Assembly: GCA_001769385.1 (NCBI GenBank)
Contig: MEPB01000062.1
Coordinates: 1 to 61,373, forward strand
Direction: 5' to 3'
DNA length: 61,373 bases
Origin: Bacteroidetes bacterium RIFCSPLOWO2_12_FULL_35_15
GTDB taxonomy: Bacteria > Bacteroidota > Bacteroidia > 2-12-FULL-35-15
Part shown: positions 13,560-50,711 of the stretch, one piece after another
Layout: each line of letters begins with the position of its first letter
Numbering within the stretch: position 1 is the first letter of the stretch
Position numbers and translations under genes: made by a program
The notes under the pieces: model-generated
Databases searched by the model: none
What the model saw: only the letters and a program-made list of their open reading frames with translations
What the model was told of the DNA's origin: nothing

Positions 13560-13593
13560 AAATTTTTTTTTAATTTTTAATTAAAAGAGATGT

Positions 13594-24856: not shown

Positions 24857-25046
24857 TTTAGAAAATATTTTTTAGATATGAATTTTAAATTTAATTTTTG
24901 TAATGCTGAGTATTTTTATCACAGAAAGTATTACCTACTATTTAAAATAATCAAATCAAATCACTTCTACTTTCTAATGTAATTTTGTTCGAACCGATTT
25001 AAAATATCAGAAGTTGTATTTAATTCTGCTAACTGATAGATTTCTA

Positions 25047-25403
25047 TTATTTAGACTTATTTCGATGTTCCAAGATATATCTATTCAATATGGTTGTTAA
25101 GGAATTATAATATGCATTTAAATTTTTTAAAGTTATTTCAGGATGTTTTTCATCAGGAATGGTTACCGGCATCTCTTCTAAATATTTAGATAACTCAGGA
25201 TATTGATTTTGTATATTCATTGTAATTTCTAAAATTTTTAAATTCAGTTCCTTTTCCGTTTCTTCTTTAATTAAACTCTTATCAAAACTTTGTTCATAAA
25301 GAGCCGGTTGAATTTCTTTTTCGATCTTTTCAATTTTTATATTTAACTCGGCATTAGCTTTTATAGCAGTAGTTATTTTTTTATCCTTCGAATTACTTTC
25401 CAT
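25047..25403 (-). CDS. Orphan protein with the C-terminal domain of the 57798 response regulator
   Basis: A 118-aa soluble protein. Its last 60 residues (QYPELSKYLEEMPVTIPDEK, then LKNLNAYYNSLTTILNRYI) align closely with the last 60 of the response regulator at 57798-58412 (KYPEMYKYIDEMKVTIPDEK, LKNLKAYFDTLDSMLNKYI). The first half is a charged helix. It looks like a stand-alone version of that output or interaction domain, which I do not recognise from any named family. It lies after the single-receiver gene at 25499. Confidence 0.65.
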   Translation of the reverse strand: MESNSKDKKITTAIKANAELNIKIEKIEKEIQPALYEQSFDKSLIKEETEKELNLKILEITMNIQNQYPELSKYLEEMPVTIPDEKHPEITLKNLNAYYNSLTTILNRYILEHRNKSK

Positions 25404-25498
25404 TGCTTGATTTTTTTAATTATTTTAAAAACAGGTCGCCACTAATATTATCATCCATCAGGTAAAATATTTTAGTTTAATAAGTAATGTTCCATATT

Positions 25499-25957
25499 TT
25501 ATATAATGACATTCCGTAGTATAGTATCATTCAATTGTAATCTATATAAACTAATTTGCAATCGACTAAAAGTACAGTTGTGTCTTTTACTTCCACATTT
25601 CATACATTTTTTTGCTACCTCCAATAAGGTTTCCAATTCAAACGGTTTTACGATATAATCGTCTGCTCCCAGTTTAAAAGCTTCAATCTGATCATTTTTT
25701 TCAGCCATAGAAGTACTGAAAATAAAAGGTATTTCAGCAGTTGTATCGGTATCTAAGAGTTGACGCAAAACTTCGTGACCGTTCATTTTAGGCATTAATA
25801 CATCGCATATAATTAAATCCGGCAAATATTTTCTGGCTAGCTCAACACCTTTTTTCCCACTATTGGTTAAGAGAATCTTATAACCCTCCATCTCCAGATA
25901 CTCCCCTAAGTTTTCAAGGATATTAGCATTGTCTTCAATTAATAAAATTGTTTTCAT
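25499..25957 (-). CDS. Single-domain response regulator
   Basis: I start at MKTILLIEDNANIL (25957). The receiver has the acidic pair ED, phospho-Asp in LIICDVLMPKMNG, Ser/Thr in IFSTSMAEK and Lys in ADDYIVKPFELE. About 30 residues follow the domain without a known output motif (CGSKRHNCTFSRLQIS). It could act as a CheY-like or Spo0F-like relay. It follows the 81-aa and OmpA genes and may share their transcript from promoter copy 5. Confidence 0.82.
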   Translation of the reverse strand: MKTILLIEDNANILENLGEYLEMEGYKILLTNSGKKGVELARKYLPDLIICDVLMPKMNGHEVLRQLLDTDTTAEIPFIFSTSMAEKNDQIEAFKLGADDYIVKPFELETLLEVAKKCMKCGSKRHNCTFSRLQISLYRLQLNDTILRNVII

Positions 25958-26050
25958 GGTCGCTGGATTATATTGGTTAACGAAATAGTGCAATGCAAAA
26001 CTTCCGGATTTGGTATTTTTTAAAATACAAGAATTATATTTTTTAAAAAA

Positions 26051-26296
26051 TTACTTTTTTAACAGCTGATTACCTGCTGATTCTTTAAATTGTTTTATCA
26101 ATATATTTCGGAACTCATCAATCTCCTTCTTATTTGATTCTAAAGTGTGCGAGGTAACCAACGACCTTTCATCTTTATTACTATGCTGACTTGAATGTGT
26201 AGATATCTGCATGGTGAGATTAACAATATCATTCATTATCTGGTCGGATTTGCTTAACATTCGATGTAATATCTGTATGTTGTTTCTCGTTTTCAT
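26051..26296 (-). CDS. Hypothetical small helical protein
   Basis: An 81-aa polar protein without signal peptide or membrane segment. The N-terminal helix (LHRMLSKSDQIMNDIVNLTM) and C-terminal charged helix flank a Ser/His/Asn-rich middle. I recognise no family. It lies between ompA-like and response-regulator genes on the same strand (84 bp and 93 bp gaps), so co-transcription is plausible. Confidence 0.5.
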   Translation of the reverse strand: MKTRNNIQILHRMLSKSDQIMNDIVNLTMQISTHSSQHSNKDERSLVTSHTLESNKKEIDEFRNILIKQFKESAGNQLLKK

Positions 26297-26379
26297 TTTT
26301 TTTATATTTAAATATTTACAAAAAAACAGGGTTCATTTAATAATTGAAATGTCAATTAAATTTTATTATAAATTAGATT

Positions 26380-27162
26380 TTATTGATTAATCAATTTGAA
26401 AAGTTCGGATAAATTCGGAGATAGAATTATTTCTGTTCTGCGATTTTTAGCTTTACCCTCTGTTGTTGTATTATCCGCAACCGGGTAAAATTCACTTCTA
26501 CCCGTAGCAATAATATTATGTGCATCAACTTTGTAATCATTAGTTAGAATACGGACAATTGAAGTAGCCCGTTCTGTACTTAATGACCAATTGTCTTCAT
26601 ATTTTCCTTTCATGGGAACATTATCAGTATGACCCTCAATCACCACACTAATATCCGGAGTTGAATTAAGTACAGTTGCCAATGATTGTAAAGCCTCTTT
26701 TCCTTTAGGATCAACCACTGCACTTCCTGATTTAAATAATAATTTTTCCTGAAGTGAAACATAAAGCTTTCCATCTTTTATCGAAACACTTAATTCATCA
26801 GGTTTAAAATTGATCAGCGCATCCGCTACTGTTTTTTTTAGTTTATTGACAATATCCTTCTGCGATTGAATTAATGTTTGCATATCTTTTAATCGTTTTG
26901 CTTGTTCTGCAATAGTCAATTTTGAATTTTCAATTGTTGTTTGGGAACTGGATGAAAGATTTGACATCGCTTTTTGTATTTCCGATTTTTCTTTTTCCAG
27001 ATCGGCAACTTTTGAATTACAACTATTCAAATTGGAATGGGTTCCAATGCTATCCGTTTGTAAATTTTTTACCCTTGCTTGTTCGCTTAGTAATTTCTTT
27101 TTTGAAACACATGATGAAGAGACAAGAATAAAACTTAATAAAATAAATGTTAATTTTTTCAT
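26380..27162 (-). CDS. OmpA-family lipoprotein with coiled coil
   Basis: A 260-aa protein with a lipoprotein signal (lipobox SSSC, about residue 18), a coiled coil (about 25-110) and a C-terminal OmpA peptidoglycan-binding domain (VVIEGHTDNVPMKGKYEDNW, LSTERATSIVRIL, NRRTEIIL). It probably tethers the outer membrane to peptidoglycan. Promoter copy 5 lies 37 bp upstream, and the gene may be the first of a transcript including the response regulator at 25499. Confidence 0.88.
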   Translation of the reverse strand: MKKLTFILLSFILVSSSCVSKKKLLSEQARVKNLQTDSIGTHSNLNSCNSKVADLEKEKSEIQKAMSNLSSSSQTTIENSKLTIAEQAKRLKDMQTLIQSQKDIVNKLKKTVADALINFKPDELSVSIKDGKLYVSLQEKLLFKSGSAVVDPKGKEALQSLATVLNSTPDISVVIEGHTDNVPMKGKYEDNWSLSTERATSIVRILTNDYKVDAHNIIATGRSEFYPVADNTTTEGKAKNRRTEIILSPNLSELFKLINQ

Positions 27163-27198
27163 GATTATTTTAGATTTAGGGTTTATTAATTTTCAAAA

Positions 27199-27267
27199 CA
27201 AAGTTGAGAAACTCAGAAACATTGATTGTTGCAAAACTTTTGAAATAAGTTACATCATTCACACATT
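27199..27267 (-). promoter_or_regulatory. Shared stress promoter element, copy 5 (ompA-like operon)
   Basis: Minus strand: GTGTGAATGATGTAAC, 15 bp, TGCAAC (one mismatch), 25 bp, TTTG. The remaining bases up to 27471 hold no gene or repeat that I can see. Confidence 0.82.
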
Positions 27268-27471
27268 AAAAAATTTGTTTCCTGTTATTTGTAGTGTTGA
27301 TGCATGTGAGTATAAAATGCGAAGGGCCGAATTTTTATTCCTCCCTTTGTATCCATTCGATACAACTATACAAATTTCCCTACTATTTATAATATCTCTT
27401 GTTGTTTAAAACTTTTTTCAAAAGAGTTACTCCTAATTTCACTCCGATTCAATAAACAACATAATGAAACA

Positions 27472-28017
27472 TTATTTTTTCTTTCCGTTTCCCCCACCAT
27501 GCTCATTTCCTTTTTTTATGTTTTTTTCATTCCCTGGAGATCCATGCTTATCTTTAGTTGGCTGAACATTTTTTCCATTACCCTGCTTTGCTTTCTTATT
27601 TGAGTTCCCCTTAGAATTAGTGTTTCCTTTTCCGGGTTTCTCGCCATTCGTTTTTTGGTACTGCCCCTGATAACCTTTTGCATATTTTATTTTATGTTCT
27701 TTAAAATAAGAGTAAGGCGTATTTCCATGATAATCGGTCATCACTACTTTATATCCACCATATAAATCATAATTTCTGTACATCCTTGGAAGATAGGATC
27801 TATGGATCCATGCTCCCCCACTATAATAAATAAACATAGAGGATTCAACATCATAATAAGCTTCAACATCCGGTATGTAATAATAACGCACTTCTGTATA
27901 TCCAACCGGTCCCCACAGAGGAGGAGTGCCAATATTTACATTCACTGAAACCTGTGCCTGTAAAGTGTTTACAAAAAACAGGACAAATCCGATAATAAGC
28001 AATTTTAAAGTTTTCAT
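27472..28017 (-). CDS. Secreted protein with basic Gly/Asn/Lys tail
   Basis: A 181-aa protein with a signal peptide (cleavage near LQAQ). A Tyr-rich domain (about residues 25-105; LWGPVGYTEVRYYYIPDVEA, YYDVESSMFIYYSGGAWIHR) is followed by a low-complexity basic tail (repeats of GKGNTNSKGN type, calculated to be highly positive). This domain is common in Bacteroidota as an unnamed family. The tail could bind nucleic acid or anionic polymers. It is 28 bp after the barrel gene at 28046, in the same operon. Confidence 0.7.
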   Translation of the reverse strand: MKTLKLLIIGFVLFFVNTLQAQVSVNVNIGTPPLWGPVGYTEVRYYYIPDVEAYYDVESSMFIYYSGGAWIHRSYLPRMYRNYDLYGGYKVVMTDYHGNTPYSYFKEHKIKYAKGYQGQYQKTNGEKPGKGNTNSKGNSNKKAKQGNGKNVQPTKDKHGSPGNEKNIKKGNEHGGGNGKKK

Positions 28018-28045
28018 AATATTTAGTTTTAGAATAATTTAATTT

Positions 28046-28747
28046 TTAGAATAAGAATGTCAATCCTATATAACCTGATTTTGTATCCACATTAGCATGA
28101 TCCAAAATATAATAGGAATTTTGTTCGGTAGTAGCAGTAGGCTTGCTGATATTTACAAAACCATATACACCTCTGAAACCAAGATCAAGACGAATTGTTC
28201 GTGTTGTATTAAGGGCAAATTCAAGGCCGGCACCATAAGCAAAACCTATGTCACTTTTTTTTACTGCCAGCACTGCTGTTAATGTATCGGTTCCGGCTGA
28301 ACCTGATCCACTAACACTTGATCCAACATTATATCCGAACTGAGCTCCTAACACTGCGTTGAGATTAACCGGCCGGGATTTTCCTGTATTAAGAGAAAGT
28401 AAAATAGGAAGATTAATATAACGAATGTTGATTTTACGCTCCAGGTCCTGATCTTTATATTTTTGCGAAAGCGAATTGTAAATAATTTCTCCTTGTATTC
28501 CGACATGGTTAGTGAAATTTATTCCTAACAATGCTCCTACTCCGTAACCCAGAGTTACTTCTCCTTTTATTGTTCCACCTGAAGAAGTTTGCATATCAAA
28601 CGAAGAAAAGGTTGGCATAAAACGAGCCCCGAATTCTACTACATGAAAAGATGGCGGTGGTGCAATAACGTGTACAGTGTCTTGGGCTTTTATAGTTGTT
28701 CCAAAGAACAAACTCATTAAGCCGATTGTAATAAATGGATTTTTCAT
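28046..28747 (-). CDS. PorT-like outer-membrane beta-barrel protein
   Basis: A 233-aa protein with a signal peptide (cleavage near IKAQ) and PorT-like barrel strands (GVGALLGINFTNHVGIQGEI, NIRYINLPILLSLNTGKSRP, LDLGFRGVYGFVNI) ending GYIGLTFLF. The terminal Phe is usual for barrels. It is the first gene after promoter copy 6 (TTTG 39 bp upstream) and is followed by the secreted Tyr-rich protein. Confidence 0.8.
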   Translation of the reverse strand: MKNPFITIGLMSLFFGTTIKAQDTVHVIAPPPSFHVVEFGARFMPTFSSFDMQTSSGGTIKGEVTLGYGVGALLGINFTNHVGIQGEIIYNSLSQKYKDQDLERKINIRYINLPILLSLNTGKSRPVNLNAVLGAQFGYNVGSSVSGSGSAGTDTLTAVLAVKKSDIGFAYGAGLEFALNTTRTIRLDLGFRGVYGFVNISKPTATTEQNSYYILDHANVDTKSGYIGLTFLF

Positions 28748-28785
28748 AATTTTTTTGTTTGATTGGTGAATTAATTTTCACAGAA

Positions 28786-28855
28786 CAAAGGTGGAAAACT
28801 AAATACCGGCAATAGTTACAGAACTTTTTTAATAAGTTATATCATTCACACATTT
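28786..28855 (-). promoter_or_regulatory. Shared stress promoter element, copy 6 (barrel operon)
   Basis: Minus strand: GTGTGAATGATATAAC (one change), 15 bp, TGTAAC, 25 bp, TTTG. The sequence after TTTG (TTCTGTGAAAATTAATTCAC) resembles that after copies 3 and 12. Confidence 0.82.
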
Positions 28856-28975
28856 GAAACTGCAACGGTAAAAAAATATTAATTAAGTCTTACCCGGCTT
28901 TATTGGGGATCTTGTTATAGCGATTTCAGATGGAGAGGATTTATCTGAAAACATGGTGACATAAGTAAGGGGGAA

Positions 28976-29161
28976 CTAATGGTGACAACCATTGCCATGT
29001 CTCTCACTAAGGACATGTTTCCTATGAAGGCCATGATGCCCATTTATGTCTCCTTCTCTTCCATGCCCGCTAACACAAATAAAACATGAAGACAATAGAG
29101 TTAGCCCTGCTAACATTATGATAAGAAGTAAAAAAAATATTGATTTAATTGTTCCCCTCAT
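28976..29161 (-). CDS. Small His-rich lipoprotein or membrane peptide
   Basis: I start at MRGTIKSIFFLLLI (29161), giving 61 aa with a hydrophobic signal and a possible lipobox (LLSSC). The mature part is short and contains about ten His and several Gly (GHHGLHRKHVLSERHGNGCH), suggesting metal binding. It has no homologue that I recognise and no shared promoter element. Coding potential is moderate. The flanking 29186-29395 shows only an imperfect palindrome near 29230-29300. Confidence 0.45.
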   Translation of the reverse strand: MRGTIKSIFFLLLIIMLAGLTLLSSCFICVSGHGREGDINGHHGLHRKHVLSERHGNGCHH

Positions 29162-29395
29162 ATCGTCCGCTTTTCGGTCATCCATCCAGCTGCACCATTA
29201 CATTAGTTCGTTTTTCAATAGTTCGCAACCTTTACACGCACTCATAAGCTTTTAAAAAATCAGCGTTCACCTTCGGCTTTTTCAGCGCGTGTAATTGTCT
29301 TTTAATGGAGTATCTACCGTATCGTTTTTACCATCAAGAAAAAATATTTTTTGACGTTTTTCATGGTAATAAATTTTAATTTATTTTAATTATGG

Positions 29396-29968
29396 TTAGT
29401 CAATAATAAATTCGGCATTTGATTTTAATTCAATTTCATTACTTACAACTGAATTACCTGCTCCAGTTCCTATTAAAAAATCCTTTCTATCAAGTTTTCC
29501 GGTAATAGTAAAGCCCACTGAACTTTTTTTAGTTATTGGATTTAATGCTCTTCCATTATAAACCACATTTAACGAAATTGGTTTTGATATGCCATGTATG
29601 GTGAGAATACCTTCTAACTTATAATTTTTTCCACTAATCTTTTTGAAAGAAGTGCTTTTAAAAGTGAGTGTAGGGTATTTAGCAACATCAAACCATTTTT
29701 CGCTTCTTAAATCGTTATCTCTCAATTCAATGTCAGTATCAATAGATTTAACATCTGCTGTCATTTCAATAACAGCATCTGTAAAATCTTCTTTTTTTGC
29801 TTTTAGCGTTGCTGTAATATTTTTAAATCTTCCTTCTACATGAGAGATTCCAAAGTGCGTTGCGCTAAATCCTACTTTTGTATGATTTTTATCCAATGTA
29901 TAAATGTTTTGTGCAACAGTAATCAATGTGATTAAGAACACTGAAATAGTTACAAGTACCTTTTTCAT
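29396..29968 (-). CDS. YceI-family periplasmic protein (copy 1)
   Basis: A 190-aa protein with a signal peptide (cleavage near VAQN) and the YceI lipocalin-like pattern (YTLDKNHTKVGFSATHFGIS, LRSEKWFDVAKYPTLTFKST, LTIHGISKPISLNV). YceI proteins bind isoprenoid or polyprenyl lipids in the periplasm and are often induced by base or osmotic stress. This is relevant because a UbiA and IPP isomerase cluster lies just upstream. Promoter copy 7 is 32 bp from its start. Confidence 0.9.
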   Translation of the reverse strand: MKKVLVTISVFLITLITVAQNIYTLDKNHTKVGFSATHFGISHVEGRFKNITATLKAKKEDFTDAVIEMTADVKSIDTDIELRDNDLRSEKWFDVAKYPTLTFKSTSFKKISGKNYKLEGILTIHGISKPISLNVVYNGRALNPITKKSSVGFTITGKLDRKDFLIGTGAGNSVVSNEIELKSNAEFIID

Positions 29969-29999
29969 TTTTTCTTTTTATATTAATTTGATAACAGAA

Positions 30000-30068
30000 C
30001 AAAAATCAATATTCTCAAAAGAACGTATGTTACAAAAAAAATTCAAAATGTTACATTATTCACACATA
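30000..30068 (-). promoter_or_regulatory. Shared stress promoter element, copy 7 (yceI copy 1)
   Basis: Minus strand: GTGTGAATAATGTAAC (one change), 15 bp, TGTAAC, 25 bp, TTTG. Confidence 0.8.
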
Positions 30069-30150
30069 ACAAGTGATTGTATATTTATTAGAATTGTTTA
30101 TTGGAAAATAATTTGAGGACAAAGTAAAAAGTAAGCAAACTACTTTTCAA

Positions 30151-30184
30151 TGAACTAAATCAACTATTTTTTTGATTTAGTTCA
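30151..30184. repeat. Hairpin downstream of idi
   Basis: TGAACTAAATCA and TGATTTAGTTCA form a perfect 12-bp stem (loop of 10, A/T-rich). It lies 54 bp after the idi stop and may protect the 3' end or terminate transcription, although no clear T tract follows on the minus strand. Confidence 0.55.
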
Positions 30185-30237
30185 ATTAGGGGAGGTTTTT
30201 TAGAAATTTGGTTTAACCGTATAGTTAAGCAACATTT

Positions 30238-30750
30238 TTAAATATATTTCAAAACTCTAGCTAAAATAATTTTAAACCAAGCTGTGTAAAGGGTTGGATA
30301 TAATCGCATATTTTGTTGAATATCAGGAACAGACATATATTTCCATTCAGCTACTTCCTGAATATTTATTTTTGGATCTTCATTATAATATCCAATAAAC
30401 ACATGATCTAACTCATGTTCAGTTAGGCCATTATCTAATTCGGCCTTGTAGATAAAATGAAAAACACTTTTCAGTTCACAGGAAAATCCCATCTCTTCAT
30501 TCAACCGTTTATGCACCGATTCTTGAAAAATTTCCTCCGGTTGAGGATGACTACAACAAGTATTTGTCCAAAGGCCACCTGAATGATACTTATCCATTGT
30601 CCGTCTTTGAAGCAATAGTTCTCCTTTAGAGTTGAAAACAAAAATGGAAAAAGCACGATGAAGTTCTCCTTTTTTATGAGCCTCCATTTTTTCCATTGTT
30701 CCTCTTGGAACATCATTTTCATCAACCAGAATGACCTTTTTTTCTTTCAT
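30238..30750 (-). CDS. idi: Isopentenyl-diphosphate delta-isomerase, type 1
   Basis: I start at MKEKKVILVDENDV (30750). The 25 residues before it in the longer ORF do not resemble the family. The 170-aa enzyme has the Nudix-like IDI features: catalytic Cys in WTNTCCSHP, metal ligands nearby and catalytic Glu in GLTEHELDHV. It interconverts IPP and DMAPP. It is the last gene on the strand after UbiA, type III PKS, methyltransferase and monooxygenase genes, separated from the last by a MITE. It probably supplies prenyl donor for that pathway. Confidence 0.92.
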   Translation of the reverse strand: MKEKKVILVDENDVPRGTMEKMEAHKKGELHRAFSIFVFNSKGELLLQRRTMDKYHSGGLWTNTCCSHPQPEEIFQESVHKRLNEEMGFSCELKSVFHFIYKAELDNGLTEHELDHVFIGYYNEDPKINIQEVAEWKYMSVPDIQQNMRLYPTLYTAWFKIILARVLKYI

Positions 30751-30843
30751 TTTTTCTACAAAATTATGCTTTACAAATACTACTCTTTTGTGAATATAAG
30801 AATTATAGAGCGATTCAACATTCAAAAATAGTTCACGTTTTTT

Positions 30844-31010
30844 AGAGCCTGTTTAAATCTTACTCAAAATGAATTATATGTCAATTTCGACCAGAGGGAG
30901 AAATCTCATTTTTAGTCTAATTTTATTGAGATTTCTCTCTCCGGTTGAAATGACAGAATGGTTAAAAATATAGTAAATAGATTCTTTTATTAAAATTTAA
31001 ACAGAATCTT
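30844..31010. mobile_element. MITE family, copy B
   Basis: Ends AGAGCCTGTTTAAAT and ATTTAAACAGAATCT are inverted repeats with a few changes. The inner palindrome TCGACCAGAGGGAGAAATCTCA pairs with TGAGATTTCTCTC...GAAATGACA (arms quoted in part). No ORF. It separates idi from the monooxygenase gene. Confidence 0.85.
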
Positions 31011-31027
31011 AATTAGTTTGAAAAATA

Positions 31028-32644
31028 TTATAAAATTAAATAGTGCTGAAGATAACTTTCAAAATATTCCACATCTTCGATATTGGACCGATAAGCGATA
31101 TACATATCCGGTCGAATAAGATAGCACCCGATATTCTTAATTCCAAATCGATCGTACAGAATTTTTGTTTCTGTTCTAAAAGGAATGATTTCAAAAGATA
31201 AAAGACCTTTATATTTTTCAGAAATTCTTAATATTTCAACCGGAGGAGAACTTTTAGTAAAAATGAAAAGCGTAAATCCATTTACCTTTATTTTCTCCTG
31301 AATATTTATTTCCTTCTCTTTATCAGTAAATACCAAATAGGGCAGCCTGTCACCTGGTTGCGGTGAATTAACAGGGAAATTCCCTAAAGATGCATAATAT
31401 GATAATGGACTTTTCCGATAGTGGATACCAATTTCAGATATCGCATTGAAACAATATTCGCGAATGATTTTATGTTTTTCTATAAGTGGCAATATCCATT
31501 TCATCAAATGGGGAAGTACATGTATACGAAATGTTTTGGTAATATTATTTTGACTTGTTACCAGATTATATATTCTACCGGTAGAACGAACTAATTTTTT
31601 TGCGATGTTTTTTCTTTCTGAAGAATAAGTGTTCAAAAGTGTATTTTTTGCTTTTCCCTGAATTACCAACATCAGTTTCCAAGCCAGATTGTAAGCGTCT
31701 TGTAATCCGGTATTCATACCTTGTGCACCAACCGGAGTGAAAGTGTGGGCTGCATCTCCAATTAAGAAACACCGATTGTGTTGATAGGATAATGCATATT
31801 GCTGAAGCGAATGAGATACAGAAAACCATTCGGGGGCATATAACTTTATTTTCATTCGAAGCCGTTCAGCAAATTTATCTTCTATGTCCTCAAATGTAAT
31901 ATGATGATTGCCTTCCAGCTCTTTTGGAATAACACCATCTATACGTTTCCTTCCATTTTTCATCGGAAAGAATCCGGAAGTGGAAGTATCAGAAAATGAA
32001 AAACATATTTCATCTGCTGGCAAATCAAGTTCTGCCTTGCAATCAATTATAAATAAAGATACAGGATGATTTTTACCGACAAAGGGGATTTTTAATTGTT
32101 GGCGAACAATGCTATGCCCACCGTCAGCAGCAATTAAGTATTTTGTTTTTATTGTTTCTTCATTTCCATCAGCGAGTTTCAAAACGGAAGTAACACCAGT
32201 TTCGTCCTGAAAAAAACTTATTAATTCAGTTTTTCTTTCAATAGAGCAACCTTGCTCGGAAACAAAGTCAATTAATAGTTGCTCCGTTTTTGATTGTTCA
32301 ATCAGATATAGATTTGGAAACTTGCTCAGGTTGCGTCCAATATCTTTTAAAGAAATCTGAATTGTTTTTTTTCCATTGAAAATAATACTTAAATCATTAG
32401 CTATAATTGCTTCTTGTATAACTTTTTCAGCAATCCCCATTTGATTAAATATTTCGATACTTCTTGCATGAATAATTAAGGCACCGGAATAAGTAGAAGG
32501 GTGTTCTTTTTTATCAATAATGCGAAAATGAACACCACAAATTGCCAGCTGGCAAGCCATCATCAGGCCTGATGGTCCGGCACCGACAATCATCACCTCA
32601 CACTTGTTTTCAGTTTTCAGTTCCTGCATAATTATTAAAGACAA
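31028..32644 (-). CDS. FAD-dependent aromatic monooxygenase (group A, PheA/UbiH-like)
   Basis: A 538-aa flavoprotein hydroxylase with the dinucleotide motif VIVGAGPSGLMMA-type (VMIVGAGPSGL, residues about 17-27), the DG motif (AADGGHS) and the GD motif (LIGDAAHTFTPVGAQGMNTG). A C-terminal thioredoxin-like extension ends with SDM-like RPDMYIAYRS, as in phenol hydroxylase-type enzymes. It probably hydroxylates a phenolic ring made by the type III PKS, comparable to SrsC. A Met at 32629 (MQELKTENK) is an alternative start. It follows the DUF421 gene by 6 bp. Confidence 0.88.
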   Translation of the reverse strand: MSLIIMQELKTENKCEVMIVGAGPSGLMMACQLAICGVHFRIIDKKEHPSTYSGALIIHARSIEIFNQMGIAEKVIQEAIIANDLSIIFNGKKTIQISLKDIGRNLSKFPNLYLIEQSKTEQLLIDFVSEQGCSIERKTELISFFQDETGVTSVLKLADGNEETIKTKYLIAADGGHSIVRQQLKIPFVGKNHPVSLFIIDCKAELDLPADEICFSFSDTSTSGFFPMKNGRKRIDGVIPKELEGNHHITFEDIEDKFAERLRMKIKLYAPEWFSVSHSLQQYALSYQHNRCFLIGDAAHTFTPVGAQGMNTGLQDAYNLAWKLMLVIQGKAKNTLLNTYSSERKNIAKKLVRSTGRIYNLVTSQNNITKTFRIHVLPHLMKWILPLIEKHKIIREYCFNAISEIGIHYRKSPLSYYASLGNFPVNSPQPGDRLPYLVFTDKEKEINIQEKIKVNGFTLFIFTKSSPPVEILRISEKYKGLLSFEIIPFRTETKILYDRFGIKNIGCYLIRPDMYIAYRSNIEDVEYFESYLQHYLIL

Positions 32645-32650
32645 AAAGTA

Positions 32651-33136
32651 TTATTTCTTAATTACACTGATTTTTCCATCACGTTCAATATATGCACTTT
32701 TTATTTCATCCAATGATTCTACATTTCCTTGTAAACGAATTCCTTCGAGTAAATCTTTATCGGTAATAAAAAATCTTTTCATATTTTTTCGAATAATTGT
32801 TTTGTCTTTGTAAATTATTTTTGCATTCCCTTTTATCAAACTTCCAAAAAGATCACTATATAAAGCGATCCAGGCAAATAGACGGTGTAAAACAACAATA
32901 ACTAAAGCTGCAATAACTGTTGATATAAATGGTGATGGCCCTATAACAGCCCTGCCTAATATTGCTCCCAATAAAACACTTATCACATTATCGAATGGCG
33001 AATTCATTCCGAAGGTTCGCCTACTGGAAAATCGTATGAAAATCAGTGCTATTAAAAATATTATAAAAGCACGAATAGCCATTTGGAAAAGACTTAACTC
33101 TCTTCCTTCGCCAATTACCTGATAAAATATGTTCAT
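32651..33136 (-). CDS. DUF421 (YetF-like) membrane protein
   Basis: A 161-aa protein with two or three transmembrane helices (about residues 18-40, 50-62, 66-90) and the DUF421 core (RFSSRRTFGMNSPFDNVISV, LLGAILGRAVIG). A C-terminal soluble domain follows (LLEGIRLQGNVESLDEIKSA, YIERDGKISVI). YetF-type proteins are linked to spore or stress envelope biology, and their activity is unknown. It sits between the PfpI-like and monooxygenase genes in the PKS transcript. Confidence 0.87.
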   Translation of the reverse strand: MNIFYQVIGEGRELSLFQMAIRAFIIFLIALIFIRFSSRRTFGMNSPFDNVISVLLGAILGRAVIGPSPFISTVIAALVIVVLHRLFAWIALYSDLFGSLIKGNAKIIYKDKTIIRKNMKRFFITDKDLLEGIRLQGNVESLDEIKSAYIERDGKISVIKK

Positions 33137-33151
33137 TTTTATAGCTAAGAA

Positions 33152-33703
33152 TCAGGCGTGAATTCCTTCTTTGGTTTCTTCTATCATTTTTTTGCAAAAA
33201 GCAGGTAAATCTTTTGGACTTCTGCTTGTGATGAGGCCATTATCCACCACAACCTCTTCATCTTTCCAATCTGCTCCTGCATTTATCAGATCTGTTTTAA
33301 GAGTTTTATAAGAAGTTACCCGTTTTCCCTTTAATTTTCCTGTTTCAATAAGTATCCAAGGTGCATGACAAATAGCGGCTATTGGTTTCCCTTGCTCGAA
33401 GAAATCCCTGACAAATTTTACAGCCAGTTCATTAACCCGTAATGAATCAGAATTTATAACGCCACCAGGTAATACCAATAAATCATAGTCTGTGGATATG
33501 GCTGCGTCAATGGATTTATCAACTTTAAATTCATCTCCCCAGTTTTTATCTTTCCATCCTTTTATTGTCCCTGATTTTAATGAGATTATATCTATTGCCA
33601 TTCCTTCTTTTTTTAAAACTTCTACCGGTTGCTCAAATTCTGATTGTTCAAAACCATTTGTTGCAAGAACAGCAGCCTTTTTTTTCTTTAATTGATTTTC
33701 CAT
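33152..33703 (-). CDS. PfpI/YhbO-type DJ-1 superfamily protein
   Basis: A 183-aa protein of the type 1 glutamine amidotransferase-like (DJ-1/PfpI) family. It has VLPGGVINSDSLRVNE, the nucleophile elbow AAICHAPWILIETG with the reactive Cys, and SYKTLKTDLINAGADW. Members protect proteins and nucleotides from reactive carbonyls under osmotic, oxidative and pH stress. It lies 10 bp from the SRPBCC gene and 15 bp before DUF421 in the PKS operon. Confidence 0.9.
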   Translation of the reverse strand: MENQLKKKKAAVLATNGFEQSEFEQPVEVLKKEGMAIDIISLKSGTIKGWKDKNWGDEFKVDKSIDAAISTDYDLLVLPGGVINSDSLRVNELAVKFVRDFFEQGKPIAAICHAPWILIETGKLKGKRVTSYKTLKTDLINAGADWKDEEVVVDNGLITSRSPKDLPAFCKKMIEETKEGIHA

Positions 33704-33713
33704 AAATATGATT

Positions 33714-34205
33714 TTAAAATTTTGTGTCTCTTTTTATTTTTGATAAATACTCTTCAAGTCTATCGATACTTTGTTTCCAACCTTCTTCTCCACCCTCCAG
33801 ATAGGGCTCTCCCTCCGGAGTAACTTTAGAAAACTTAGAAACCATTTCAAATTTTGTTTTACCACCTACTTCGTTGAGATTGATTGTTGTCATTTCTTCA
33901 AATAATGATTTGCCTTCTTTATCCAGCGCAGCGCTTGTAAAAACAAGACGTTCGGGTTTAATAATCTCCAGATAGTATCCTTTCATTGGGTAAATTGTTC
34001 CATCTGGCCCTTTCATTTCAATATAAATAGCACCGTTTGGACGAACATCTATTTCACAAACCGGAGTGGTGAATCCCTGAGGTCCCCACCATTTAACCAA
34101 TTGATTTGGGTCTGTCCAGGCATTCCACACCAACTCTTGTGGTGCATTTAAAATCCTGGATTGAGTAAGTTCTTTTTTTTCTAATATGATTGCCTTTTTT
34201 TCCAT
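33714..34205 (-). CDS. SRPBCC / AHSA1-type domain protein
   Basis: A 163-aa protein with the START-like Activator-of-Hsp90-homology-1 pattern (RILNAPQELVWNAWTDPNQL, KWWGPQGFTTPVCEIDVRPN). The C-terminal signature ends EGGEEGWKQSIDRLEEYL. These single-domain proteins bind hydrophobic ligands in a deep pocket. In this operon it could bind a polyketide or prenyl intermediate, but the family is also very common in unrelated contexts. Confidence 0.87.
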   Translation of the reverse strand: MEKKAIILEKKELTQSRILNAPQELVWNAWTDPNQLVKWWGPQGFTTPVCEIDVRPNGAIYIEMKGPDGTIYPMKGYYLEIIKPERLVFTSAALDKEGKSLFEEMTTINLNEVGGKTKFEMVSKFSKVTPEGEPYLEGGEEGWKQSIDRLEEYLSKIKRDTKF

Positions 34206-34270
34206 TGCATTATTTTATTTATTTTTTTATTAATTCTGTTTTAGATCATCCATTAATGTAACATAATGCT

Positions 34271-34978
34271 TCAATCATTAGCAATTACAATGTACCTGAA
34301 TGGCCAACTCCATTTCACTGAATAATTTTTAAACCCTGCCCTTTCAAGTAAGGATATTAACTCATTTTTTTTAAACCCTCTCCTTACTGAAAGAGGAGCA
34401 TCATTTTTTACCAAATAGGATTTTGAAAATAAAGTGGTAAGTACTTTAATGCTATAATAAGCCAGCCAATTACGGTGCAAGTCATTTGCAAGAATAATGC
34501 ACTGATTAGCTTTTCCAAATTTGAATAAACTAATTATTTCTTCATCCGTAAGATGATGTAAAAACAAACTGCAATGAATTACATCTATTTGTTTAAGGAG
34601 CTCTTCTGAAATATTCCGGTAGTCGTCACAAATTAATTTTTTATTATAGAGCGCAGATAGGTTGTCTGTTGCGTATGTTACACAATCGCTTTTTAAGTCA
34701 ACTCCATAGAAAAATATCTTTGTTTTGCTTTTATCCGCAAATTTGGAAAGCTGTTTTATAGAATCTCCTCCTCCAAATCCAATATCTAAAACAGTACTAA
34801 CTTTATTTTTTGTCTTTAATATATGACCTAGTCCTTTTTGGGAAGCATTATATCCGCCCAATTGCTTATTGATAATATCTAACTCGGTTAGGTTCCGATA
34901 TAGATCTTTGGTTGCAATAGCACTATTGTCCAAATATTCTTTTTCATATGATCTAAATCCGAATTGCATAATTTTCAC
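34271..34978 (-). CDS. SAM-dependent methyltransferase beside the type III PKS
   Basis: A 235-aa class I methyltransferase with SAM-binding motif I VLDIGFGGGDS and a conserved post-I Asp (YGVDLKSD). The motif HCSLFLHHL is typical of Methyltransf_25-type enzymes. It overlaps the PKS gene by about 26 bp (17 bp from the alternative Met at 34969), so translation is coupled. The pairing matches srsA-srsB in alkylresorcinol synthesis, so ring O- or C-methylation of the PKS product is the likely job. Confidence 0.85.
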   Translation of the reverse strand: MKIMQFGFRSYEKEYLDNSAIATKDLYRNLTELDIINKQLGGYNASQKGLGHILKTKNKVSTVLDIGFGGGDSIKQLSKFADKSKTKIFFYGVDLKSDCVTYATDNLSALYNKKLICDDYRNISEELLKQIDVIHCSLFLHHLTDEEIISLFKFGKANQCIILANDLHRNWLAYYSIKVLTTLFSKSYLVKNDAPLSVRRGFKKNELISLLERAGFKNYSVKWSWPFRYIVIAND

Positions 34979-36104
34979 TAACGTATTTAAGTTTATTCTT
35001 GAGTGCTGTATCTACAGAAGATAGACTGATCATTTCAATACTCAATCCTGGTCCAAAAGCGCAAGAAAATATTTTTTTGTTTCCGGCATGTTCGGTTTTT
35101 TTTATTTTATTGAAAATCCTGTTTAAAATAAAAAGAATAGTCGGAGATGACATATTACCATATTTTTGAAGTATATGCATTGAATCTTCAACATTACTTT
35201 TGCTCAGTTGAAGACTGTCCTTAACGGCTTCAATGATCCTGACACCACCTGGATGAATTGCCCAATAGTCAATTTCACTAGCTCTTTCGTTCAGAAAATC
35301 AGCTACCACCTTATTTATATTATCTTTTATGGCGCTAACAATATTCTTGCTCAGGAACATTCTAAATGCTGATGAAGAAATATTCCAGGTCATTAGATCC
35401 AAAGTATCAGGAATACAAACCGAACCGATAGTATCGATCTTTAAAACTACTTTATTTTTTAAATGTTTGCTCTCATTACCACATACGAACACAGCAGACG
35501 CCCCATCAGCAAATAGTAAATTAGAAATAATATCTTCATCCACATCAGAAGGGTAAAAATGCAAGGAACAAAGTTCAGCACTTATAATTAAAATACAGGC
35601 TTCAGGATTTGCCTCTGCTATATAATGTGCTTGTTTAAGCGCTTTAATCGCAGCATAACAACCTAAAAAATTAATGGCCAATTTTTCAGTATGTTGCAAA
35701 TTGTAATGTTCTGCTATAAAAAATTCAATGCCTGGAGCAAATAGTCCCGTGCAACTGACAGTTATAAGGTGTGTAATATCACCCGCTTTAATATTGTTTT
35801 CCGATAGTAAGTTATCAATTGCTTTTTCTGCAAGCGGCATTATCTTTTTCTTATACAGTTCCATTCTTCTTTCAACCGGCTGCTTATAATCTCCCTCTGC
35901 ATATAATTCGTATTTATTTCCATTATAGTCCGGAATACAACTATAACGGGTATTTATTTTTGTTTTCTTATTTAATAAATTTAACTTTTTAGTAAGATGG
36001 CTTGTTTTTTCAGGCGGAAAAGTCTGTGAATAAAAACGAACCACATCTTCCTTTTCAATTCGGTATTCGGGAACAGCGGTTGATATATCTAGGATGTATG
36101 ACAT
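34953..36104 (-). CDS. Type III polyketide synthase (alkylresorcinol/alkylpyrone-type)
   Basis: A 383-aa chalcone-synthase-like enzyme with a complete triad: Cys149 in FLGCYAAIKAL, His284 in WAIHPGGVR and Asn317 in KYGNMSSPT. VSCTGLFAPGIE is also conserved. Family members extend a fatty-acyl starter with malonyl-CoA to alkylresorcinols or alkylpyrones. Neighbours (UbiA 5 bp upstream, overlapping methyltransferase, later monooxygenase, IPP isomerase) suggest a prenylated, methylated phenolic lipid. The product is not established. Confidence 0.92.
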   Translation of the reverse strand: MSYILDISTAVPEYRIEKEDVVRFYSQTFPPEKTSHLTKKLNLLNKKTKINTRYSCIPDYNGNKYELYAEGDYKQPVERRMELYKKKIMPLAEKAIDNLLSENNIKAGDITHLITVSCTGLFAPGIEFFIAEHYNLQHTEKLAINFLGCYAAIKALKQAHYIAEANPEACILIISAELCSLHFYPSDVDEDIISNLLFADGASAVFVCGNESKHLKNKVVLKIDTIGSVCIPDTLDLMTWNISSSAFRMFLSKNIVSAIKDNINKVVADFLNERASEIDYWAIHPGGVRIIEAVKDSLQLSKSNVEDSMHILQKYGNMSSPTILFILNRIFNKIKKTEHAGNKKIFSCAFGPGLSIEMISLSSVDTALKNKLKYVSENYAIRI

Positions 36105-36109
36105 ATTGC

Positions 36110-36970
36110 TTATTTAATTATTAATATTAAGAAGTAAATATTGTTGAGCATTGATGAAAGCACAAGCATGGTCATCGCATTTTTAAAATTTATGTGTGTT
36201 TTGTTTTTAAATGATCTTAAGCCCCATATTATAAAATACGCAGTGGATGGCAACATTACGATGTTAAAAAGCCAGAAATTATTTATGGTGATATCTCTTT
36301 GAAAGGAAAAATAAATAAACAACGTAGCCAATGAAAACATTAACGCGGAAAAAATAAATGTTCCTTTGATTCCAAGCAACATACTGAGTGTTTTGACACC
36401 ATCTTTCCTATCCGAATCATGCTGGTAAATTTGAGTGATCGGGTATATTGTTCCAATAAAAAAAGAAGAAGCAATAGCTGAAAATACGACTGATTGATCT
36501 GAAAACAACTTAACCGAGGACAAAGCAAAAATATTTGCACAGAATATCCATGCGCCTTGAAAAAAGAATACTACTAAAAAACCTATAATTGGAAATTTCT
36601 TGAGCCTGATTTTTCTATTGCTATATAGCCGTGAGAAGATGATGTAACCGACAACAAAAATTGAAAAATAAATATTTATTAAAAAGGAAAACAAAATAGC
36701 TGCTCCATCAAAAATAGCTGCTACATATAATAACAATTTTGTTGGTTGGGGTGGAGCCGCTAATCCTCCGATTGGACCTTCATCCTGGTCATTATAACTG
36801 TTATATCCATTACTTGAAGGGAAAACTAAAATGTGCCAGGTAATTAAAACTAAAAATAGTTGGTAATTGATTTCAGGATGAATAATGTAAAAAGAAAATA
36901 AAGATATAGGCAGTAGAAACGCTGAAAAAGGAAATCTAAGTAGCTTAATAGTATCTTTGACCTGACCCAT
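36110..36970 (-). CDS. UbiA-family prenyltransferase
   Basis: A membrane prenyltransferase with about eight transmembrane segments, the first Asp-rich motif in NSYNDQDEGPIGG and the second in DSDRKDGVKTLSML. I start at MGQVKDTIKLLRFP (36970), because this puts the start 39 bp from the promoter TTTG as in other copies, whereas the longer ORF (36994) would leave a leader of only about 8 bases. It probably prenylates the aromatic product of the adjacent type III PKS. First gene of the cluster. Confidence 0.88.
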   Translation of the reverse strand: MGQVKDTIKLLRFPFSAFLLPISLFSFYIIHPEINYQLFLVLITWHILVFPSSNGYNSYNDQDEGPIGGLAAPPQPTKLLLYVAAIFDGAAILFSFLINIYFSIFVVGYIIFSRLYSNRKIRLKKFPIIGFLVVFFFQGAWIFCANIFALSSVKLFSDQSVVFSAIASSFFIGTIYPITQIYQHDSDRKDGVKTLSMLLGIKGTFIFSALMFSLATLFIYFSFQRDITINNFWLFNIVMLPSTAYFIIWGLRSFKNKTHINFKNAMTMLVLSSMLNNIYFLILIIK

Positions 36971-37008
36971 CTTTATTATTTTTACTTTCAACATTCAATA
37001 TAAGTACA

Positions 37009-37078
37009 CAAACATAGCCCCTGTTAAAACGTAAACTATTACACAAATTTTTTTAATACTTACATCATTCACATATTT
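37009..37078 (-). promoter_or_regulatory. Shared stress promoter element, copy 8 (UbiA-PKS operon)
   Basis: Minus strand: ATGTGAATGATGTAAG, 15 bp, TGTAAT, 25 bp, TTTG in the context TATGTTTG, a perfect TAnnTTTG -7 box. Confidence 0.82.
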
Positions 37079-37110
37079 GTGTCAAGTACAAAATAATTGA
37101 GGCCGATCTT

Positions 37111-37542
37111 TCAGATCATTTTTTCTTTAACGAGAAGATGAGCTTCGGAAGTAATAGAGGTTTTTAATGCTTTTGAAACCGGGCAGTTTTTTTCAGCCTC
37201 TTTAGTCACTGTAGTGAATTCATCAGCTGTTATCCCTGAAACATCCCCGGTGATAGATAAATGAATATTCGTGATATTTAAGTCTATTAATGTAACAGTT
37301 GCTTTGGTATCTAATGATTTTGGAATTAAACCTCTTTTGCTTAATATATCTGCAACTGACATCGTAAAACAACCGGCATGTGCTGCACCAAGCAACTCTT
37401 CCGGATTTGTACCTTCCACCCCTTCTACAAATCGAGATTTATGACTATAACCGGCTTCTTTTAAAATCCCGGTTTGAGTACTTACTGTGCCTTTACCATC
37501 TTTAATGTTACCCTGCCAATGAGCCTTTGCCGTACGTTCCAT
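37111..37542 (-). CDS. osmC: OsmC-family peroxidase
   Basis: A 143-aa protein with the two redox cysteines of OsmC/Ohr enzymes: Cys58 in AAHAGCFTM and Cys120 in EKNCPVSKAL, plus Arg and Glu near LGAAH. It reduces organic hydroperoxides. The length and N-terminus (KAHWQGNIKDGKGTVSTQTG) fit the OsmC rather than the Ohr subgroup. It lacks the shared promoter element. A possible FNR-type box lies about 370 bp upstream beyond a MITE. Confidence 0.9.
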   Translation of the reverse strand: MERTAKAHWQGNIKDGKGTVSTQTGILKEAGYSHKSRFVEGVEGTNPEELLGAAHAGCFTMSVADILSKRGLIPKSLDTKATVTLIDLNITNIHLSITGDVSGITADEFTTVTKEAEKNCPVSKALKTSITSEAHLLVKEKMI

Positions 37543-37610
37543 ATTGCTATTATTTTTTAGAATAATTATTAATTCATTAATTTATTAATTATGTTCATTT
37601 TAAAATTATA

Positions 37611-37820
37611 AGACGCTGTTTAAATTTGTTTCAAAATTTATTATATGTAGTCCCATACGGGACTATATCTTAATACGAATCTGATTTTCTAGCAATATCT
37701 CGTCCCTACTGGACTATTTTTGCTCCGTTAGGAGCTAAATATTGGTAGTAATGACAAAAAAAGAACAACCCTCCTTTAGGGGAAATATAAATTATTAGAA
37801 ATTAAATTTAAACAGGCTCT
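37611..37820. mobile_element. MITE family, copy C
   Basis: Ends AGACGCTGTTTAAATTT and AAATTTAAACAGGCTCT are inverted repeats. The core differs from copies A and B (CCCATACGGGACTA and similar short palindromes). It sits in the 940-bp region without a gene between osmC and the ytxH-like gene. Confidence 0.78.
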
Positions 37821-37912
37821 AAGAATATTTGTTTTTAAAAAAACACATTTTTACATTACAAAAGTGTGCAACTCTTCCTCCATAGTACATGACCAATGTC
37901 AAAACATAGTAG

Positions 37913-37924
37913 TGATTTTTATCA
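37913..37924. promoter_or_regulatory. FNR/CRP-like palindrome, site 1
   Basis: TGATTTTTATCA matches the TGAT-N4-ATCA core used by FNR/CRP-family regulators. It is preceded by TGTCAAAA. The same arrangement occurs at 39378-39389. Its distance from osmC (about 370 bp) is due largely to the intervening MITE. Confidence 0.45.
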
Positions 37925-38174
37925 ATAAAACAAAATGATTCGTTTTTCTATCTCCGATACAGAGTATCGCGGTATTACGAAAAAACTTCGGCTAAAAAGT
38001 CAATCATCATTTTGCAAAACTTTTTGATGTAAAAGAATATTCTTTGCGCAAAACCTACTTCTCGCAGTAAAACTGCGGGTATTATTTGAATAAAAGAAAT
38101 AGGGTGTTATAAATAATCAAATTTATTTTTTCAATATCTATTTATGATTTAATAAAACTTTATTCATAAAAAAA

Positions 38175-38334
38175 GAAGTTCCGTTAGTAAAGTCTTTTTT
38201 AAAAACCGATCAACGGATAACAAGCTCGTGTACCTTTTCGTTGGTCATGGAAGGAAGATTGGGAAATTTCCATGTTCCTGATGCCGTTCAGCCAACCTGA
38301 CAAACCGATAAAGACCTTACTAAACCAGAACTTC
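38175..38334. ncRNA. Possible structured RNA or palindromic element
   Basis: The ends GAAGTTCCGTTAGTAAAGTC (38175 on) and GACCTTACTAAACCAGAACT (38313 on) pair with few mismatches. Inside, GATCAACG and CGTTGGTC, and GGAAATTTCC, form further stems. No ORF crosses it. It may be a folded RNA, a transposon end or a large MITE. The rest of 37821-38484 shows only the FNR-like site and small hairpins (for example CGCAGTAAAACTGCG). Confidence 0.35.
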
Positions 38335-38484
38335 AAATAATCAATGAACATTTAACAGGACGTTGTTTTTTTTAACCTCCAGAATTCTTGTTTCTTTGGG
38401 ATGCGAAGGTCTCTAATATTTTTAATTTATATGATACGAAATTTTTCCTTCTCATTTGAAAATTGTTTTCAAGTCAAATTAATA

Positions 38485-38769
38485 TTATTTTGACTTCTCT
38501 GATTTAGCATGTCCATCTTTCATAAACTCATGATCTTGCATAAATTCATGTGTTTTGTCTTTAACTGTTTCACTTTGTTTTTTGATCTCTTCAAGAAAGT
38601 CGTTGAATTTTTCTTTCATTGCATCGGTAAGGTCATCTGATTTACCGGCTAATTTTTTACGTGTATCACTTCCTTTTGCCGGTGCAAATAGAATTCCAAG
38701 AACTCCGCCTACGGCAGCGCCTAATAATAATACTCCAATAAGTTTTGCGGTGTTGTTTGAATTTTCCAT
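38485..38769 (-). CDS. YtxH domain-containing stress protein, second copy
   Basis: A 94-aa protein with an N-terminal Gly/Ala-rich membrane segment (LIGVLLGAAVGGVLGILFAP), AKGSDTRKKL and a charged helix with EIKKQSETVKDKTHEFMQDH. Paralogue of 6049-6327. It follows the hydrophilin-like gene by 18 bp, a YtxH-hydrophilin pair. A truncated, frameshifted copy of its 3' part lies at 39403-39560. Confidence 0.87.
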   Translation of the reverse strand: MENSNNTAKLIGVLLLGAAVGGVLGILFAPAKGSDTRKKLAGKSDDLTDAMKEKFNDFLEEIKKQSETVKDKTHEFMQDHEFMKDGHAKSEKSK

Positions 38770-48862: not shown

Positions 48863-48897
48863 TTTATTTGGTTTTTGGTTTAAATTAATTTCTACGA

Positions 48898-48966
48898 CAA
48901 AGATGGGTATCTAAAGACCTGTATATGTTACAGAACTTTTATAATAAGTTACATCATTCACACATT
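48898..48966 (-). promoter_or_regulatory. Shared stress promoter element, copy 11 (DUF3494 gene)
   Basis: Minus strand: GTGTGAATGATGTAAC, 15 bp, TGTAAC, 25 bp, TTTG. Consensus form. Confidence 0.85.
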
Positions 48967-48990
48967 GAATTATTTTTTTTATAAAACAAA

Positions 48991-49026
48991 AAGTCCTCTA
49001 TCCTTTTTTATTTGGATAGAGGACTT
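48991..49026 (-). terminator. Terminator of the 49044 DUF3494 gene
   Basis: AAGTCCTCTATCC and GGATAGAGGACTT form a perfect 13-bp stem with a 10-base loop, followed on the minus strand by TTTGTTTTATAAAA. Confidence 0.85.
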
Positions 49027-49043
49027 AATATTTTTTATATTAT

Positions 49044-50675: not shown

Positions 50676-50711
50676 TTTATTGATTTTTATTGTGAATGAA
50701 TTTTCACAAAA

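Follow-up and report, generated by a model that had tools for sequence, protein, structure and literature searches.

The 61,373-nucleotide contig MEPB01000062.1 of Bacteroidetes bacterium RIFCSPLOWO2_12_FULL_35_15 (assembly GCA_001769385.1; this whole stretch is referred to as the window) carries an operon that contains genes for a UbiA-family membrane prenyltransferase, a type III polyketide synthase (PKS), a class I S-adenosylmethionine (SAM) methyltransferase and a flavin adenine dinucleotide (FAD) hydroxylase. We estimate the probability that this core operon makes a prenylated phenolic (hydroquinone or quinone) lipid at about 0.6. Neighbourhood counts over 162 PKS loci show that PKS, methyltransferase and FAD enzyme are a conserved module, found in about three quarters of the sampled loci, that UbiA is an addition, always present in the window's genus but sporadic outside it, and that the remaining genes drawn into the cluster by the initial annotation are local. 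The kind of pathway is known; prenylation, a change of flavoenzyme and a motif shared with a regulon set this case apart. New here are the apparent flavoenzyme replacement in the window and in a sister genome (G018, PKS locus L003) and the motif before UbiA in the window and two relatives.

Gene content of the operon

Profile searches with the window proteins gave clear family matches for every gene named in the initial annotation, all on the minus strand. In the direction of transcription the order is OsmC, the motif, UbiA, PKS, methyltransferase, SRPBCC, DJ-1, DUF421/YetF, FAD hydroxylase, idi and YceI. The core genes are as follows.

36110..36994, minus strand: UbiA-family membrane prenyltransferase (Pfam PF01040, 60.6 bits, cut-off 34.2)
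34953..36104, minus strand: type III polyketide synthase (both Chal_sti_synt domains; C149-H284-N317, W240)
34271..34969, minus strand: class I SAM methyltransferase (weak Pfam matches, best 34.3 bits, cut-off 27)
31028..32629, minus strand: FAD_binding_3 group A monooxygenase, 533 amino acids (aa) (E 1.2e-79)

UbiA lies 5 bp from the PKS gene and perhaps has its true start at ATG 36970. The methyltransferase gene overlaps the PKS gene, as had been annotated: the PKS stop ends at 34953 and the methyltransferase has an ATG at 34969, its listed open reading frame (ORF) beginning at GTG 34978. Starts that fit better than those of the listed ORFs were also found for the FAD enzyme (ATG 32629) and idi (ATG 30750). 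The gaps from the methyltransferase through the FAD enzyme are 65, 10, 15 and 21 bp, and 277 bp without a motif copy separate the FAD enzyme from the idi start.

Conservation of the module

Within the order, 20 of 36 genomes had a PKS relative at E<=1e-20, all belonging to the window's genus and including the window's genome (G000); in the phylum draw 179 of 395 genomes had one. The 162 loci compared consist of the window, four loci from a first search (one of which, L006, is not from Bacteroidota), 18 from the window's genus and 139 from the phylum-wide draw. L097 (the same place as L003) and L094 were left out, as were the partial match in G007, ten listed phylum matches and the unlisted ones, so that the weakest relatives are under-represented; some genomes contribute two loci, and 13 loci have less than 3 kb on one side of the PKS gene. 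A gene was counted as a neighbour within 5 kb of PKS, and the FAD enzyme counts combine enzymes of three families (lengths about 370, about 385 and, as listed ORF, 538 aa), which the iterated profiles merged and which were split afterwards by BLASTP and length.

A methyltransferase gene was found near PKS in 128 of the 162 loci (directly adjoining in 127), an FAD enzyme in 126, and both in 125. UbiA was present in 38, adjoining PKS in 37 of them and lying on the same strand in 28 and the opposite strand in 10, and 35 loci held all four genes. The phylum draw alone gave 106 loci with methyltransferase, 103 with methyltransferase and FAD enzyme, 17 with UbiA and 14 with all four; the window and first-search loci gave 4, 4, 3 and 3 of 5, and the window's genus 18 of 18 in every category. 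The view that PKS, methyltransferase and hydroxylase belong together is thus borne out, and the inclusion of UbiA holds for a subset of loci and fails elsewhere.

The plasmid collection, searched at E<=1e-5, held 180 records with a PKS relative and 33 with a methyltransferase relative; all 20 methyltransferase records listed, of the 33, also carry a PKS relative. Among seven plasmids examined, the methyltransferase adjoins PKS or is one gene away in six (Psychrobacter, Paludisphaera, Deinococcus, Microvirga, Methylobacterium and Sphingobium), and in all of these except Microvirga, whose third gene is shorter and was left out of the FAD comparison, a full-length FAD enzyme accompanies the pair. 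Deinococcus radiodurans and Sphingobium are among the carriers of the trio. The Streptomyces plasmid has enoyl-CoA hydratases around PKS, which we take to be a DpgA-like context. No UbiA annotation was seen in the seven plasmid stretches of about 9 kb each, for which the gene table is incomplete.

Several loci carry further genes beside the module. L205 (1213-8758) has FAD enzyme, methyltransferase and PKS followed by SDR, FabA-like, ketoacyl synthase and phosphopantetheinyl transferase genes, possibly a dedicated supply of acyl starter, and other loci of its family code have genes of similar size. A MatE-family exporter gene stands immediately before PKS in L123 (5773-7113), with a similar-sized gene at that position in many loci of its family code. 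YceI genes occur within 5 kb of PKS in L093, L204, L205 and L210 besides the window, and a lipid/isoprenoid-binding protein gene is mentioned for one PKS operon (PMC10896814).

The polyketide synthase

The catalytic triad C149, H284 and N317 is at exactly the positions first annotated and is invariant across the 61 PKS rows compared. In the alignment, W240 falls in the column of Pks11 W230, a position that has been equated with the ArsB tryptophan required for resorcinols (PMC5916927) and at which ArsB and ArsC are contrasted (PMC9927152). This Trp is kept in all five rows of the window's clade, in 14 of 14 other UbiA rows and in 25 of 26 non-UbiA rows with a methyltransferase or FAD enzyme. 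W240 agrees at the residue level with a resorcinol product and is no proof of one.

The PKS tree was built from 61 of the 162 loci and seven plasmid rows by a quick method without a mixture model, and 25 of its 65 inner branches are open. It places the window PKS in a five-row clade (support 100, starred) with L003 of G018, L004, L005 and one copy from G020, a genome that also carries a PKS of another type. The fewest changes on the tree were 5 for UbiA, 6 for the methyltransferase and 9 for the FAD family (states include 'none'), with a direction that cannot be read. The best NCBIfam name for the window PKS was DpgA; this identity was rejected at 142 bits against a cut-off of 425. In L004 (10001-11151), from a metagenome-derived genome, PKS is split into two overlapping frames.

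Prenyltransferase and methyltransferase

The UbiA residues N65-x3-D69-x-D71, Y190-Q191-H192 and D195 are each kept in 39 of 41 aligned rows, one of which is a duplicate locus. The window's genome (5.4 Mb) has five UbiA matches. A PDB sequence search with the window UbiA returned one match at E 0.23, and the same search with the methyltransferase returned none. The window methyltransferase matches class I methyltransferases, not ICMT; an ICMT-type methyltransferase follows PKS in the Bacteroidota locus L192. A model built from methyltransferases of the Bacteroidota loci scored 128-230 bits on the six plasmid methyltransferases near PKS genes, the lowest being Paludisphaera, whose enzyme, from an operon of methyltransferase, FAD enzyme and PKS, is 28% identical to that of the window (E 9e-19). 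By these scores the window methyltransferase is of the same family as the six plasmid enzymes.

A probable flavoenzyme replacement

Three FAD families fill the hydroxylase slot, namely enzymes of about 370 aa, of about 385 aa, and the 538-aa ORF of the window and G018, the two copies of which are 77% identical. The best NCBIfam model for the 370-aa family is the geranylgeranyl-reductase superfamily (86 and 95 bits for the two proteins tested, both below the cut-off of 159), and the 385-aa family is hydroxylase-like in the one protein tested (L123). The 38 UbiA loci divide into 33 with the 370-aa family, two with the window type and three with none; the 124 loci without UbiA divide into 56 with the 385-aa family, 35 with the 370-aa family and 33 with none. 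The usual 370-aa enzyme, searched with the G020 protein at E<=1e-10, was found in G020 and G017, with no match in the window's genome or G018. The relatives L004 and L098 (the G020 locus) carry it.

Relatives of the window enzyme with solved structures, among them rifampin monooxygenase, aromatic polyketide oxygenases and hydroxybiphenyl monooxygenase, belong to the group A flavin monooxygenases; many of them use aromatic substrates, and the matches are mainly over the FAD domain. The FAD enzyme of the Paludisphaera operon scored 42 bits to that of the window and 75-82 bits to three usual Bacteroidota enzymes, and the window enzyme is closer to the Deinococcus one (104 bits). Set against the FAD enzyme of the planctomycete and alphaproteobacterial operons, the window enzyme is of a different family. 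It was also rejected as an orthologue of the usual 370-aa enzyme, from which it is separate by BLASTP and length and which has no match in its genome. On this comparison of families, we read the case as one flavoenzyme standing in for another in the window and G018. Such a replacement would support the window enzyme's membership of the pathway, despite the three genes between it and the methyltransferase. The initial annotation recognized a group A monooxygenase as the hydroxylase, and this enzyme is present in the operon; the substitution had been overlooked.

A small hydrophobic protein is encoded beside the FAD enzyme in L098 (18272-18748), L003 (15216-15677), L004 (12902-13312), L005 (12913-13359) and L099 (11190-11666); a Pfam scan of one of these gave no match.

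Promoter motif and probable regulon

The operon is preceded by a promoter motif, also found in two relatives, of the general form TGTGAATNATGTAA-N15/16-TGTAA.

37039..37073, minus strand: motif TGTGAATGATGTAA-N16-TGTAA, upstream of the operon; eighth of 13 window copies, as annotated
37009..37016, minus strand: TATGTTTG, a sequence match to TAnnTTTG

The 13 window sites (6412-58524), all on the minus strand, compare with 0.01 expected in 100 shuffles, for a pattern derived from these same sites; the motif family was also recovered independently of the pattern, as 13 repeat copies. The spacing is N16 in the window and N15 before UbiA in L003 and L004, and the N15 pattern was picked after the sites had been viewed, which makes its shuffles illustrative only. 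About 100 bp separate motif and UbiA in all three, and the motif is followed by TATGTTTG in L003 and TACATTTG in L004. TATGTTTG conforms to TAnnTTTG, the consensus of the Bacteroidetes -7 element. The TGTAA repeat at 21-bp spacing would presumably suit a LytTR-type regulator.

Allowing up to two mismatches, 24 sites across the genome fit the N16 pattern (reversed control 4): 13 lie in this contig, as do eight of the nine perfect sites, and seven in contig C36. In G018 the number is 32 (control 2), with 17 within 74 kb of contig C56, and in G017 it is 27 (control 0). Sites are clustered in these two genomes as well and not in G020, where just 2 occur (control 1); one sits about 3.7 kb upstream of UbiA and precedes two other genes.

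The window island includes genes for an MlaE-type permease, AI-2E, OmpA, PorP, bestrophin, YtxH, YceI (40107), ice-binding and PAS proteins. Relatives of the island genes are in or next to the C56 stretch of G018, and several are also in G017 contig C16; the genes from UbiA to the FAD enzyme have no match at E<=1e-15 in the G018 island stretch. In G018 the bestrophin and YtxH matches are separated by 0.4 kb (L230 10433-10839); in the window the distance is 13.6 kb, and the intervening segment, which holds the PKS cluster (24856-38485), is absent at that place in G018. The PKS operon of G018 lies on contig C4, away from the island contig, yet bears the motif. C4 and C56 are draft contigs that could be neighbours; the operon would still be at a different spot. 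Because the motif is kept in G018 although the operon is placed elsewhere, the operon seems to be a genuine member of the regulon that has changed place.

The window also has a block of response regulators, Hpt, a hybrid kinase and a PAS protein (51158-58523), one protein of which is 90% identical over 700 aa to its counterpart in the sister island; the block is a candidate for the regulon's own control. Inside the motif island (regions 47243-50714 and 17420-21553) are a protein of ice-binding type that ends in a type IX secretion tail (47243-48862) and two proteins sharing repeats with it. Together with the places of origin in the names of relatives (Kiruna, palsa), the ice-binding genes hint at cold. 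The suggestion of envelope stress or oxidant defence in the initial annotation is plausible from the OsmC, YceI, ice-binding and PAS kinase neighbours.

Local genes around the module

The other genes near the module are the following.

37111-37542, minus strand: OsmC (family match)
33714..34205, minus strand: SRPBCC/AHSA1-type protein (family match)
33152..33703, minus strand: DJ-1/PfpI protein (family match)
32651..33136, minus strand: DUF421/YetF membrane protein (family match)
30238..30750, minus strand: type 1 isopentenyl diphosphate (IPP) isomerase idi (NCBIfam PRK03759.1, 166.8 bits, cut-off 127)
after idi, minus strand: YceI (family match; own motif copy at 30030-30064)

Only two of the 162 loci have idi near PKS, the other being that of G020, in which idi, 53% identical to the window gene, is in a chain of overlapping genes after the PKS operon. 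The G018 idi (71% identical) is on a different contig from its PKS operon, and within 19 kb around it the sole near-match to the motif has 2 mismatches. The window idi is also 70% identical to one of two in G017. The window's genome has a single idi match, and the gene presumably supplies isoprenoid synthesis as a whole; its position beside the same PKS clade twice is suggestive but thin. A five-gene pathway including idi, as first envisaged, was rejected on co-conservation.

DJ-1 is near PKS in four of the 162 loci, and SRPBCC, DUF421 and OsmC in the window only, so that DJ-1, SRPBCC and DUF421 do not stand as cluster parts. In L003, DJ-1 lies between methyltransferase and FAD enzyme, in one 547-aa frame with a CCP/MauG-type peroxidase (11927-13570), either a real fusion or the result of a missing stop.

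Comparison with known systems

The agq cluster of Actinoplanes missouriensis, reportedly described by Awakawa in 2011, has four genes, agqABCD. By enzyme class, the window resembles it in having UbiA beside PKS together with a methyltransferase and an FAD hydroxylase. The agq product has been named (PMC3569393), and a UbiA-like enzyme has been studied in vitro for its O-prenylation of a small polyketide (PMC4044012); the likeness would lie in a methoxy-bearing, polyketide-derived hydroquinone and UbiA-like membrane prenylation. The agq host, however, is an actinomycete, and the window operon has internal stress genes and a different regulation.

In gene order the window (PKS, methyltransferase, FAD enzyme) matches hidC, hidA and hidB of the hierridin-producing cyanobacterial hidABC (PMC8086630). 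Like hidABC, planctomycete operons bring PKS, methyltransferase and oxidoreductase together; their PKSs make alkylresorcinols, to which co-expression of methyltransferase and FAD enzyme adds one methyl (PMC10896814). The Paludisphaera plasmid order of methyltransferase, FAD enzyme and PKS is that reported for planctomycetes and hidABC (PMC10896814, PMC8086630), but its FAD enzyme is of another family than the window's. Hierridin-type clusters differ in that a prenyltransferase is described for a single cyanobacterial hierridin-like cluster (PMC8086630). In the losA region of Micromonospora endolithica (loseolamycins; PMC7587189), a UbiA-family prenyltransferase, a methyltransferase and an alkylresorcinol-forming type III PKS are within four neighbouring genes, as here, whereas an acyl-CoA dehydrogenase replaces the flavin hydroxylase and the published products are the PKS resorcinols. 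The srsABC and pkqABC clusters of Streptomyces and Mycobacterium combine PKS, methyltransferase and hydroxylase or oxidoreductase to make alkylquinones, which are raised in spores or used in hypoxia (PMC9927152); they are likened to the window by enzyme class only, and prenylation is not mentioned for them there (0 occurrences of 'prenyl'). The srsABC logic of the initial annotation was right, with hidABC closer for gene order and agq for the prenyltransferase. One survey of Bacteroidetes counts type III PKS clusters among the four cluster types most commonly predicted there (PMC9100364).

Proposed pathway and alternatives

From what was observed directly (gene content, co-conservation, catalytic residues, motif conservation, and the usual FAD enzyme missing where the other is present), we infer substrates, product, step order, prenyl donor, inducing stress and role as follows. 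The operon would be turned on with the regulon through the TGTGAATNATGTAA-N15/16-TGTAA motif. PKS would elongate a long-chain acyl starter with malonyl units and cyclise it to an alkylresorcinol, the methyltransferase would add a methyl to a ring carbon or oxygen, the FAD_binding_3 enzyme would hydroxylate the ring to a hydroquinone oxidisable to a quinone, and the membrane prenyltransferase would add an isoprenoid chain. The most likely product would be an alkylresorcinol converted to a hydroquinone or quinone lipid, on the model of the hid, planctomycete, pkq and srs operons, with prenylation on that of agq. The methylated, hydroxylated and prenylated resorcinol or quinone lipid first predicted fits the core enzymes; the wider cluster including idi falls away from it. 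In the membrane the lipid may be a redox lipid, an antioxidant or a barrier lipid. Polyketide quinones from the analogous trio are alternative electron carriers in actinobacteria (PMC9927152), and an antioxidant or barrier role fits the neighbour genes equally well.

Several observations weigh against a prenylated product of this kind. UbiA is not within 5 kb in 124 of the 162 loci (122 of 139 in the phylum draw), L005 of the window's own PKS clade has neither UbiA nor the motif, and at least 147 of the 180 PKS-bearing plasmid records have no methyltransferase match (at most 33 do). The Trp at W240 is also in 15 of 16 tree rows without UbiA, methyltransferase or FAD enzyme nearby and is therefore no marker of the pathway, and CylI has Leu there. 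The window PKS is on a long stem (0.85), and the tree does not settle its position among the others. Four clade relatives have the small hydrophobic protein after the FAD enzyme, and the window's genome has no match to it. The planctomycete study leaves the role of its FAD enzyme unresolved (PMC10896814), and a literature search, mostly at title and abstract level, gave no described product for a Bacteroidota member or a UbiA-bearing form.

The frequency of UbiA and the case of L005 would suit a trio that makes an unprenylated phenolic or quinone lipid of hierridin or polyketide-quinone type, with UbiA prenylating something else or being a passenger. We consider this rather unlikely on account of adjacency, not frequency: where UbiA is near, it adjoins PKS in all but one of the 38 loci, across several family codes and on either strand, and the five UbiA matches in the window's 5.4-Mb genome would rarely lead to this by chance; a UbiA-like enzyme O-prenylating a small polyketide has moreover been studied in vitro (PMC4044012). 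An alkyl-alpha-pyrone may be thought of in place of a resorcinol. The bpsAB genes of Bacillus subtilis encode a type III PKS and an ICMT-type methyltransferase, a combination that shares PKS and methyltransferase with the window and that L192 brings into Bacteroidota, and bacterial type III PKSs such as ArsC can make pyrones (PMC9927152). A methylated pyrone of the BpsAB kind is nevertheless quite improbable here, as the window methyltransferase is of class I, W240 is associated with resorcinols, though not exclusively with this pathway, and a pyrone would offer nothing evident for an aromatic hydroxylase to act on. The short gaps from UbiA through the FAD enzyme and the G020 idi at the end of an overlapping chain would favour one dedicated pathway from idi to OsmC, in which idi would provide the prenyl donor and DJ-1, SRPBCC and DUF421 would be pathway parts. 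The rarity of these genes near PKS and the location of the G018 idi on another contig make that very unlikely.

Beyond the prenylated phenolic lipid, we offer one speculative extension, against which we would still bet. Some Bacteroidota may make a second, polyketide-derived prenylated lipoquinone besides menaquinone. Here it would have come under a dedicated regulon in an island rich in ice-binding, OmpA, YceI and PAS kinase genes, a group A flavin hydroxylase would have taken over the oxidation of its ring, and it would be induced by stress to carry electrons or to protect the membrane from oxidation.

With one module of PKS, methyltransferase and FAD enzyme, UbiA in a subset and a flavoenzyme that varies from lineage to lineage, what were orphan clusters become a single pathway open to testing. 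In addition to the window and its sister, all 18 PKS loci from the window's genus have the UbiA-bearing form, and the trio is also present in named organisms such as Deinococcus radiodurans and Sphingobium.

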